From assembly GCF_024494725.1 (NCBI RefSeq), contig NZ_JANHDK010000003.1, forward strand, positions 372,001 to 436,000: 64,000 bases of DNA, read 5' to 3'. The stretch comes from Haloplanus ruber (GTDB lineage Archaea; Halobacteriota; Halobacteria; Halobacteriales; Haloferacaceae). Numbering within the stretch: position 1 is the stretch's first letter; every line of letters starts with the position of its first letter. Shown here piece after piece: positions 36,666 to 40,558 of the stretch. The notes below the pieces were generated by a model, which did not search any database, was not told where the DNA came from, and saw only the letters and a program-made list of their open reading frames with translations. The translations under genes were made by a program, and so were the position numbers.

Positions 36666-37400
36666 GTGACTATCGCCCGACTGCTCGGCATCGAGACGCC
36701 CGCCGACGCCGCCGACTGGTACGCGGCCGGGCGGGCCTACACCCGTCGGGTCGCGGCGGGGATGGAGTTCGACGGCGTCGAGGCCGTCGACGGCGACGGG
36801 GTGGCCGCGACGCTTCGGGCCAACCCGACCGCACTGTCGCGCCGTGCGGCCGAATCTGTCGTCGGCGTCTTGGTCGGCGACGCCGTCTTCACCGACCCGT
36901 TCTGCGAGTGGATGCCGACGTGGTACGAACTCGGCCTGTGGCCGGCGGCCAGACTCCTCGAACGCCGACTGCGGCGGATCGCCCGCGAGGTGGCGGCGGT
37001 TGCAGGGCTGACCGTCACGACGCCTCGGTTCTCGCGGCCCCGGGACGTCCTCGTGGCGGGTCGCTCGCCGCTCGCGGAGGTGTCGGGCTTTCGCGAGCGG
37101 TTCGTCCTCGCGGCGGCGGTGACCCACCTCGAGTGGTTCGCCCACGCCGCGGCCGCGGACGGTATCGCGGTGCCGCAGGACCTACTCGCGCGGGCGCGCC
37201 GGGAGACGCTCGAACATTACGCCGGGTCGGGCCGGCCGCTGTCGCCCCGGATTCGGCGCTTCCAGCGCCTGCTGTTCACCGACGGCGAATGGGTGCAGGC
37301 GGTCGACGCCGCGTACGGACTCGATAGCTGGGTGTTCGACCGGTGGGCCCGGTGGCTGGACGCCGAACGGTCGCGTCTCGCCGCCGTGGCCGACGGGTGA
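36666..37400 (+). CDS. Conserved haloarchaeal-type protein, unknown function
   Basis: The 244-residue soluble, largely helical protein starts with GTG at 36666. It is rich in Arg and Trp for a halophile protein (WYELGLWPAARLLERRLRRIAREV; FRERFVLAAAVTHLEWFAH). No catalytic motif or family is recognised. It is divergent from the cobalamin operon, with 85 bp between the starts, and ends 59 bp before cdrL. Codon use is typical of the host. Confidence 0.65.
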   Translation: MTIARLLGIETPADAADWYAAGRAYTRRVAAGMEFDGVEAVDGDGVAATLRANPTALSRRAAESVVGVLVGDAVFTDPFCEWMPTWYELGLWPAARLLERRLRRIAREVAAVAGLTVTTPRFSRPRDVLVAGRSPLAEVSGFRERFVLAAAVTHLEWFAHAAAADGIAVPQDLLARARRETLEHYAGSGRPLSPRIRRFQRLLFTDGEWVQAVDAAYGLDSWVFDRWARWLDAERSRLAAVADG

Positions 37401-37459
37401 CAGACAGGCGTCAGACACCGTCCAAGGTTTGAAATAACCCGCCATCGTGTCTGTGAACG

Positions 37460-37993
37460 ATGAGCAAGATCACGTTCCGCGCCGACGACGATCTCGTCGA
37501 GCGCCTGGAGGAGTTCGACGACTCCAAAAGCGAGGTGATGCGCGACGCGTTGCGCACCTACCTCGACGACGCGGAACGCGAACCGAGTGACGGTGGGGCC
37601 GACACGGCCGACCCTACGATGGCGTTGCTGGAGACGCTTCTCGCCGACGGGGCGTTTGCGCCGCGGGAGCCGCCGTCGATCAACGTAAACGTCACTGTCG
37701 ACGGCGCGTCGACCGATCCGTCGGACGTGTCCGTCGAACGCGAGTCCGAGACGACAGAGCGTAAGACGCAATCCGAGCGTCCGACCGACGAGGACGGGTC
37801 GGCGGCCGCGCGTAAAACGTGCTCCCAGTGTGGCGAGGAGATGTCCACCGGGCACGTCTACTGCCCAAACTGCGGTGAAAAAGGCGCACACCGCGTCTTC
37901 TGTGACTGTGGCGACGAGATTCGGTCGGACTGGGCGTTCTGTCCGAGCTGTGGCCGCCGAACGCCGGCAGCGGATGTGTTGGACCGTGCGTAA
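37460..37993 (+). CDS. cdrL: Long RHH/zinc-ribbon regulator CdrL
   Basis: The 177-residue protein has an N-terminal ribbon-helix-helix DNA-binding domain (SKITFRADDDLVERLEEF, then DDSKSEVMRDALRTYLDD), an acidic linker, and two C-terminal zinc ribbons (CSQCGEEM..YCPNCGEKG and CDCGDEI..FCPSCG). This architecture, upstream of a short RHH gene and ftsZ2, matches the CdrL/CdrS pair that controls cell division in Halobacterium and Haloferax. CdrL is expected to act on the cdrS-ftsZ2 promoter. Confidence 0.88.
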   Translation: MSKITFRADDDLVERLEEFDDSKSEVMRDALRTYLDDAEREPSDGGADTADPTMALLETLLADGAFAPREPPSINVNVTVDGASTDPSDVSVERESETTERKTQSERPTDEDGSAAARKTCSQCGEEMSTGHVYCPNCGEKGAHRVFCDCGDEIRSDWAFCPSCGRRTPAADVLDRA

Positions 37994-38031: not shown

Positions 38032-38189
38032 TGTCTTACAACGGCCGTTAGTTTTATACCGTATTGGTCTGTTGTTACGTTTGCGTAAGACGGTCGTCTT
38101 ACAGATTCGGCGTCCGTGGGGTAGCGGGCCTCCACCGGACGATTCGAGCCTGTAAGACAGTGCGCGGGGTGCTGCCCGTTCCGTCTTAC
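38032..38189 (+). promoter_or_regulatory. cdrS-ftsZ2 promoter with five GTCTTAC boxes
   Basis: A TATA-like TTTATAC lies at about 38053-38059. The heptamer GTCTTAC or its complement occurs at 38033-38039 and 38183-38189 (forward) and 38152-38158 (reverse). It also forms a perfect inverted repeat GTAAGACGGTCGTCTTAC at 38085-38102. The repeat sits at the expected transcription start. RHH proteins bind such short palindromes, so these are likely CdrL and/or CdrS operators. The cdrS ATG is about 100 nt further on, giving an unusually long leader for a haloarchaeon. Confidence 0.7.
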
Positions 38190-38389: not shown

Positions 38390-39559
38390 ATGCAGAGTTT
38401 CGTCCAAGACGCTATCGAACACGAGGAGGCCGAAGAGCGCGGTGCCGACGACGACGACGAGTTCGGCAACCCGCGGATCGTCATCGTCGGCGCCGGCGGT
38501 GCCGGTAACAACACGGTCAACCGACTGTACAACATCGGTGTCGACGGCGCCGAGACGGTCGCGATCAACACCGACAAACAGCACCTGAAGATGATCGAGG
38601 CCGACACGAAGATCCTCGTCGGCAAGTCGCTCACGCAGGGGCTGGGTGCCGGTGGCGACCCCTCGATGGGTGAGCGCGCGACCGAGATGGCCCAGGGGAC
38701 GATCAAGGAAGTCCTCGGCGAGGCGGACCTCGTGTTCGTCACCGCGGGGATGGGTGGCGGGACCGGCACCGGTGCCGCGCCCGTCGTCTCCAAGATCGCC
38801 AAAGAGCAGGGTGCCATCGTCGTCGGCATGGTGTCGACGCCGTTTAACGTCGAGCGCGCCCGCACGGTCAAGGCCGAGGAGGGACTCGAGAAACTCCGCG
38901 GCGAGGCCGACTCGATCATCGTCCTCGACAACAACCGACTGCTGGACTACGTACCCAACCTGCCCATCGGCAAGGCGTTCTCGGTGATGGACCAGATCAT
39001 CGCCGAGACGGTCAAGGGTATCAGTGAGACCATCACCCAGCCCTCGCTCATCAATCTGGACTACGCGGACATGTCCACGATCATGAACCAGGGCGGCGTC
39101 GCGGTGATGCTGGTCGGCGAGACGCAGGACAAAAACAAGACCCAAGAGGTCGTCAGCGACGCGATGAACCACCCGCTGTTGGACGTCGACTACCGCGGCG
39201 CGTCCGGCGGACTCGTCCACATCACCGGTGGTCCGGACCTCACGCTGAAGGAGGCCGAGGGCATCGCGAACAACATCACCGAGCGACTGGAGGCGAGCGC
39301 CAACGTCATCTGGGGCGCGCGCATCCAGGAGGAGTACAAGGGCAAGGTGCGGGTCATGGCCATCATGACCGGCGTCCAGAGCGCTCAGGTGCTCGGCCCG
39401 TCGACCCAGCGACAGGCGGAGAAGTCCCGTCGCAGCCTCAACGGTGAGGACGTTTCGGAATTCGATGCGAGCGAAAACGTCGGTCAGGAGCAGGGCTCTT
39501 GGTCCGACGGCGGTCGCAACGAGGTCGATACGCGTAACGGCGTCGACGTCATCCGGTAG
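38390..39559 (+). CDS. ftsZ2: Cell division GTPase FtsZ2
   Basis: The 389-residue tubulin homologue has [13 protein letters not shown], the GTP-binding tubulin signature [27 protein letters not shown] and the T7 catalytic loop region [22 protein letters not shown]. An acidic N-terminal extension (about 25 residues) and a polar C-terminal tail with a short conserved end are typical of haloarchaeal FtsZ2. FtsZ2 acts with FtsZ1 in ring constriction. It is cotranscribed with cdrS. Confidence 0.97.
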
Positions 39560-39592
39560 CGACCGCGAGGCTTCTTTCCCGTCGCCCGCGTC

Positions 39593-40558
39593 TTACACCG
39601 CTTCTATCGACTCGACTAGCCGGCACTTCCGGCAGATTCGACCGCTCGTGCTCGACCCACAGCGGTCGCACTCGCCGAGGTTGGGGCCGTCGTCGTCACG
39701 GTACCGCTCGGCGGCCAACTCCGCGAGTTCCTCGTAGCCCGCCATGATCGAGTGTCGCGTCCCGGGGTGTGACTCCTCCATGCCGAGCAGGAGTTCCTGA
39801 ATCTCCCCGCGGTAGGCCTCGCTCGCGTGCGGACACTCCGTAATGTGGGCCGGGAGGTCCGCGAGGTGGGCGTACAGCGCCACCTCCTTTTCGGGCACGT
39901 CGCGCAGTGGCTTGGCCCGGGGGACGAAGTGTGTCGTCTCGGCTCGCCGGTCGAACGGCCCGAGACTCGCGTCGAAGTGTTTGGCCATCTGTTTCAGATC
40001 CCCCTCGAAGAAGTTCATCAGGGCGGTCTGGGCCTCGTCGTCGAGGTTGTGGCCCGTCAGCAGTTTGTCGGCGCCGAGTTCGTCGGCGTACGACTCCAGC
40101 AGGTCGCGGCGGAACACACCACAGTACGCGCAGGCGGCCATGTCCTCGGGGTCCGTCTCGACCACGTCGTCCATGCGAACGCCGAGTTCGTCGGCGTACG
40201 ACACCACCTCGTGGCGCAGGTCACGGTCCGCGGTCAGTCGCTTGGAGGCGTCGAGGCTCTCGTCGCGGTAGCCCTCGATCCCCTCGTGGATCGAGAGGGC
40301 GACCAACTCCACGCGCGGGTCCTTGCCGAACGTCTCCGCCAACACGTGTGTCAGGACGACGCTGTCTTTGCCCCCCGAGAGACCGATCACCCACGTCTGT
40401 GGGTTCTCCGGCGAGGCCGTCGCCGGAAGGAGACCGTCCTCCCTGATTCGCCGTCGCACCCGCTTATCGACCGAGGCCCGGAGGTGCTTGCCACAGAGGT
40501 GGGCCCCCGAGTAGGCCGCGTGCATCACCGCCTCGCGGCCGCACCTGTCACAGTCCAT
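39593..40558 (-). CDS. ncsA: NcsA/TtcA-family tRNA 2-thiolation enzyme
   Basis: The 321-residue enzyme belongs to the TtcA/CTU1 family. N-terminal CDRCGREAVMHAAYSGAHLC and C-terminal CDRCGSSTSGRICRKC are zinc sites. The PP-loop is IGLSGGKDSVVL, and CAYCGVFRR carries the central Cys pair used for an Fe-S cluster or sulfur transfer. CTU1/NcsA thiolates the wobble uridine of Lys, Gln and Glu tRNAs. In haloarchaea it works with the ubiquitin-like SAMP2. Confidence 0.92.
   Translation of the reverse strand: MDCDRCGREAVMHAAYSGAHLCGKHLRASVDKRVRRRIREDGLLPATASPENPQTWVIGLSGGKDSVVLTHVLAETFGKDPRVELVALSIHEGIEGYRDESLDASKRLTADRDLRHEVVSYADELGVRMDDVVETDPEDMAACAYCGVFRRDLLESYADELGADKLLTGHNLDDEAQTALMNFFEGDLKQMAKHFDASLGPFDRRAETTHFVPRAKPLRDVPEKEVALYAHLADLPAHITECPHASEAYRGEIQELLLGMEESHPGTRHSIMAGYEELAELAAERYRDDDGPNLGECDRCGSSTSGRICRKCRLVESIEAV

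Follow-up and report, generated by a model that had tools for sequence, protein, structure and literature searches.

The stretch of DNA between cdrL and the cdrS-ftsZ2 operon of Haloplanus ruber probably carries a DNA operator array serving the cdrS-ftsZ2 promoter, composed of short GTCTTAC/GTAAGAC boxes and bound mainly by CdrL, the product of the adjacent gene. This conclusion draws on the sequence together with published ChIP-seq at the level of the region. Comparison of genomes indicates that the array is ancient and class-wide in Halobacteria. The features on which the argument depends, within the 64 000-nucleotide stretch that was analysed (the window), are as follows.

37399..37416, + strand: CdrS-type site GACAGAC-N4-GTCAGAC, immediately 5′ of the cdrL BRE/TATA
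37460..37993, + strand: cdrL (Pfam RHH_1 at residues 4-36, DZR at residues 121-165, CdrL_M weak)
37761..37767, − strand: sixth GTCTTAC-type box, exact, within coding sequence of cdrL, where CGT AAG ACG (Arg-Lys-Thr) supplies it
38033..38039, + strand: box 1, GTCTTAC, exact, upstream of the TATA box
38052..38058, + strand: TATA box TTTTATA of cdrS-ftsZ2, as read from the sequence
38085..38102: boxes 2 and 3, the paired box GTAAGAC-GGTC-GTCTTAC (box 2, 38085-38091, − strand; box 3, 38096-38102, + strand), over the predicted transcription start
38152..38158, − strand: box 4, exact, in the leader
38183..38189, + strand: box 5, exact, ∼20 bp before the cdrS start codon
38205..38387, + strand: cdrS, 60-aa RHH regulator (NCBIfam NF058555 'transcriptional regulator CdrS', 123.7 bits, cut-off 100)
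38390..39559, + strand: ftsZ2 (Pfam Tubulin and FtsZ_C; TIGR00065 ftsZ)

The five boxes that the initial annotation placed between cdrL and cdrS-ftsZ2 are all exact, and chance does not account for them: ∼0.003 boxes were expected in the 158 bp, giving a Poisson P of ∼1e-15, a value to be taken as post hoc, the interval having been drawn around the boxes. The window as a whole held 8 boxes as compared with 3.2 expected from dinucleotide shuffles, none of 100 shuffles reaching 8, and there were 58 GTCTTAC in the 3.28 Mb genome. What had been described as an 18-bp palindrome is symmetric in its two 7-bp arms, but not in its GGTC centre; the exact sequence GTAAGAC-GGTC-GTCTTAC occurs once in the genome. 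The position of the TATA box supported both a cdrS leader of ∼100 nt and the placing of the palindrome over the expected transcription start, while the number of boxes assigned to the leader had to be revised from three to four, boxes 2-5 lying at or downstream of that start. A 5′ UTR and a strong promoter have been reported for cdrS in Haloferax volcanii (PMC8406309).

When the GTCTTAC sites elsewhere in the genome were checked singly, no second cluster was found and no division gene was recognised, and a substantial part of the sites lay within coding sequence, as judged in each case from heuristic gene calls. A TFB gene with a pair of boxes flanking its TATA element (C1:102721, 102774) was considered as a second target and rejected, as only 2 of 11 relatives in the genus keep even one of these boxes. 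A seventh box lies at 39590-39596, ∼30 bp past the ftsZ2 stop codon; boxes near the ftsZ2 3′ end were also present in several of 80 relatives, which is above chance but not general.

The scan of relatives proposed in the initial annotation was carried out on 391 genomes, a sample of the class Halobacteria. The paired box, with a spacer of 4-5 bp, was present in 368 of them, whereas a reversed control gave practically none, and 366 of the 368 positives carried a single such site per genome. A second paired box was seen only in two genomes (G239 and G363). Twenty of the 23 genomes without the strict palindrome retain the array with a spacer of 2, 3 or 6 bp or with one altered box, and the assemblies of the remaining three (G348, G229 and G362) contain no cdrS. 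Boxes were present in all 152 distinct cdrS promoters examined. The 80 named cdrS loci, which represent Haloplanus, Halorubrum, Haloferax, Halorussus, Halorientalis, Haloarcula and further taxa, each have 3-7 exact boxes in equivalent positions directly upstream of the gene. The consensus of 666 boxes extends to Y-GTCTTAC-R. Box 1 was found in most relatives, in two alternative orientations and positions; box 5 was exact in 148 of 152 distinct promoters, and box 4 was often degenerate where box 5 remained exact. One genus (L115, L117) has direct repeats of the form GTATGAC-N3-GTAAGAC-N3-GTATGAC, with a 10-bp period, in place of the palindrome. In Haloferacaceae archaeon XH8 there are two cdrS loci on one chromosome (L004, L005), each with a full box array.

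The paired box keeps its place with respect to the promoter. Of 144 loci, 105 had a TATA-like hexamer at 30-34 bp before the palindrome and 18 had one at 37 bp, the others being left unassigned, whereas the pair and the start codon were separated by anything from about 90 to 137 bp; this near constancy on one side and variation on the other tie the pair to the promoter. Boxes 2 and 3 are 11 bp apart, start to start, in 114 promoters and 9-13 bp apart in others, and the outer boxes are irregularly spaced. In some genera the spacer of the pair takes lengths between 2 and 6 bp, so strict helical phasing of the two boxes is not obligatory.

The sixth box lies inside cdrL itself. GTAAGAC occurs within the coding sequence of 99 of 141 distinct cdrL genes, in a poorly conserved linker; it precedes the palindrome by 284-373 bp, in most cases by 309-330 bp. 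It is written by a particular choice of codons: 107 of 116 Arg-Lys-Thr (RKT) tripeptides are encoded as CGTAAGAC[A/G], that is CGT-AAG-AC[A/G], as compared with ∼6% predicted by the codon usage of the cdrL genes themselves, a difference whose P value ignores the kinship of species, many of the cdrL genes being from Halorubrum. The same pattern recurs in Halorientalis, Halorarius and Natrialbaceae, and ACC and ACT are never used for the Thr of these tripeptides. The flanking preference of the cdrL box is that of the other boxes. Maintenance of the box by codon choice indicates selection on the DNA within a coding sequence and suggests that the intragenic box is a distal operator.

An enrichment of the heptamer at other division genes, which would have made it the mark of a wider regulon, was not found. 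None of 20 ftsZ1 promoters contained GTCTTAC; they carry instead a sister word, GTC[A/T]GAC, at 1.15 per 200 bp, in haloarchaeal ftsZ1 promoters arranged in pairs. Conversely, halobacterial cdrS promoters (n = 152) had 4.36 GTCTTAC per 200 bp (0.03 in shuffles) and only 0.07 GTC[A/T]GAC, and so do not belong among the promoters bearing the sister word. The words of the cdrS promoter on the one hand, and of the ftsZ1 and cdrL promoters on the other, are therefore one base apart and nearly exclusive by promoter. The absence of GTCTTAC from ftsZ1 promoters points to a single-target operator rather than a division regulon.

The sister word is very probably that of CdrS. In Haloferax marinum, GTCNGAC pairs precede ftsZ1 and the genes for a Pan1-type proteasome-activating nucleotidase and a PRC-barrel protein, and a single box is found at dacZ; the published CdrS ChIP sites of Haloferax volcanii include ftsZ1, panA, dacZ and a PRC-domain protein (PMC8406309). 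We assign the motif to CdrS from this coincidence with its published targets. The word is also present at the cdrL promoter, in the window and more widely: among 140 distinct cdrL promoters, 77 had an exact GTC[A/T]GAC and 111 had GTCNGAC; the distance to the BRE/TATA element was measurable in 88 cases and was 7-8 bp in 82 of them. Because the cdrL promoter is absent from the published list of CdrS ChIP sites (PMC8406309), the action of CdrS on cdrL is a prediction.

Outside Halobacteria, but within the same phylum, the cdrS promoter bears the other word. The 25 distinct promoters had 0.08 GTCTTAC and 1.80 GTC[A/T]GAC per 200 bp, and 68 of 80 distances between adjacent GTC[A/T]GAC boxes were exact multiples of 11 bp (7 expected). 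This 11-bp-phased array upstream of cdrS-ftsZ2 (loci L171-L190 and L200-L204), of which we found no description in the open-licence literature, is a clean candidate for a CdrS autoregulatory operator. No CdrL was seen adjoining the 25 outgroup cdrS loci, and against the non-haloarchaeal genomes of the phylum the CdrL profile matched zinc-ribbon stretches only, with no protein combining RHH and zinc ribbon, in agreement with the published distribution of CdrL. As relatives without CdrL have the phased array at the cdrS promoter, the ancestral state was probably CdrS autoregulation, CdrL later taking over the promoter with a word that differs by one base. The present circuit would thus seem to derive from an older one, the rewiring having come about through a one-base change in the word.

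That the array is read by an RHH protein, as the initial annotation proposed, is well supported by its conservation, its spacing from the TATA element, its single occurrence per genome and published CdrL ChIP-seq. In Halobacterium salinarum, CdrL gave a single reproducible ChIP-seq site, located at the level of the region upstream of cdrS-ftsZ2 (PMC7439475), which matches the one paired box per genome. We found no CdrL motif in the open-licence literature, although one may be published elsewhere. CdrL has an N-terminal RHH domain and a C-terminal double zinc ribbon. From the RHH family in general, we take residues 3, 5 and 7 of the RHH strand to be the likely DNA-facing positions. These are K-T-R in 140 of 141 CdrL proteins, the exception having an insertion of two residues at the N-terminus; in every CdrS, halobacterial and outgroup alike, they are R-T-R. 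The difference between K3-T5-R7 and R3-T5-R7 correlates with the one-base change of word.

The CdrL profile found no match in 15 of the 391 genomes. Three of these lack the whole locus and the other 12 all retain the exact paired box. A deeper search found no CdrL in four of the 12, from three genera (G026, G001, G007 and G002), where the array is intact; the other eight candidates come from a quicker scan that scored only eight candidates per genome. The rule that the array occurs only with CdrL holds at class level but fails in four genomes without detectable CdrL, and in up to 12. CdrL is thus not needed everywhere to maintain the boxes, and a second reader, most simply CdrS, must be considered.

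One way of accommodating both proteins is for CdrS-CdrL hetero-oligomers to read the asymmetric GTC-T-TAC as a composite, in which GTC is one half of a CdrS site and TAC one half of a CdrL site. On this scheme an ancestral CdrS autoregulatory array would have become a two-input ftsZ2 operator through one base change per box and a paralogue with Arg3 changed to Lys, with a further box arising in the coding sequence of the regulator. The asymmetry of the box makes this a reasonable idea, but we regard it as a tentative possibility. We consider it unlikely that GTCTTAC is read chiefly by CdrS instead of CdrL, as a low-affinity version of the CdrS word that sets negative autoregulation. Such a role would account for the array in the four (up to 12 by the quicker scan) genomes without CdrL, for the CdrS-type array at the same place in the outgroups and for the GTC half that the box shares with the CdrS word. 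However, CdrS ChIP-seq in Haloferax volcanii yielded 18 sites among which its own promoter is not listed (PMC8406309), although a Haloferax species (L081) carries the array; R3-T5-R7 is unchanged between groups with different words at cdrS; and it is CdrL that binds the region in vivo (PMC7439475).

An unrelated haloarchaeal DNA-binding protein would likewise explain why the array is kept where CdrL is absent. This is very unlikely, given the CdrL ChIP signal at the cdrS promoter, a word one base from that of CdrS, pointing to an RHH paralogue, and a single site per genome, which fits a dedicated local regulator. Least probable of all is control of cdrS-ftsZ2 translation or processing by GUAAGAC/GUCUUAC pairing in an RNA leader (2 with 5, 3 with 4): boxes 2-5 do lie within the predicted transcript and the leader in the window folds somewhat better than shuffles (z −2.3), as identical repeats must, but box 1, which precedes the TATA box, falls outside the transcript from the cdrS promoter, box 5 is exact without compensating change in 56 promoters with a degenerate box 4, some species (L133) lose box 5 and retain 2 and 3, the cdrL box shares the flanking preference, and there is no relevant Rfam family.

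We therefore favour CdrL as the main reader of a double-stranded operator array. Each YGTCTTACR box would take one RHH dimer, so that the boxes 11 bp apart over the start could seat a pair of dimers on the same face of the helix, at the point where RNA polymerase begins transcription. Further dimers may bind or bridge the flanking boxes and the cdrL box, ∼320 bp away, possibly with looping of the DNA. Since the pair sits over the predicted start, CdrL probably limits initiation and would thereby set the level of CdrS and FtsZ2. On the sign of control, deletion of cdrS is reported to lower ftsZ2 1.3-2.2-fold (PMC7439475). Binding may be cooperative and may tune the promoter to the cell cycle or growth phase. 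CdrS, in turn, would read GTC[A/T]GAC just upstream of the ftsZ1, panA, dacZ and, by prediction, cdrL promoters, closing a two-gene loop in which CdrS acts on cdrL and CdrL acts on cdrS-ftsZ2.

The timing of FtsZ-based division in archaea is largely unknown, and CdrS and CdrL are the main regulators described in haloarchaea. The present analysis gives CdrL a concrete candidate word and predicts a CdrS-CdrL feedback loop. It also offers an evolutionary case of paralogous regulators separated by a single base, between which control of a division operon has probably passed.

RHH repressors that read arrays of short boxes are known in MetJ, with its met-boxes, and in the omega-repressor, with its heptads. 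The cdrS-ftsZ2 array resembles these in its short repeated words, their mixed orientation and the proposed binding of one dimer per box. A separation near one helical turn is seen in its central pair in 114 promoters, but the outer boxes are irregular; the outgroup CdrS-type array does show such spacing, in 68 of 80 distances. The cdrS-ftsZ2 array is unlike the known ones in that two paralogues divide two near-identical words, and in having a box within the regulator's own coding sequence. The CdrS ChIP motif of Haloferax volcanii (Liao 2021; PMC8406309) represents a symmetric RHH target, which we infer to be GTC[A/T]GAC-N4-GTC[A/T]GAC; GTCTTAC, by contrast, differs by one base, is asymmetric and is absent from the ftsZ1 promoters tested. 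The closest known counterpart is the CdrL site of Halobacterium salinarum (Darnell 2020; PMC7439475), with the same intergenic location, the adjacent regulator and a single site per genome. That site was described in the text as a ChIP peak, without a motif, box array, palindrome or intragenic box, whereas sequence analysis here specifies the word, the arrangement of its copies and their conservation throughout the class.
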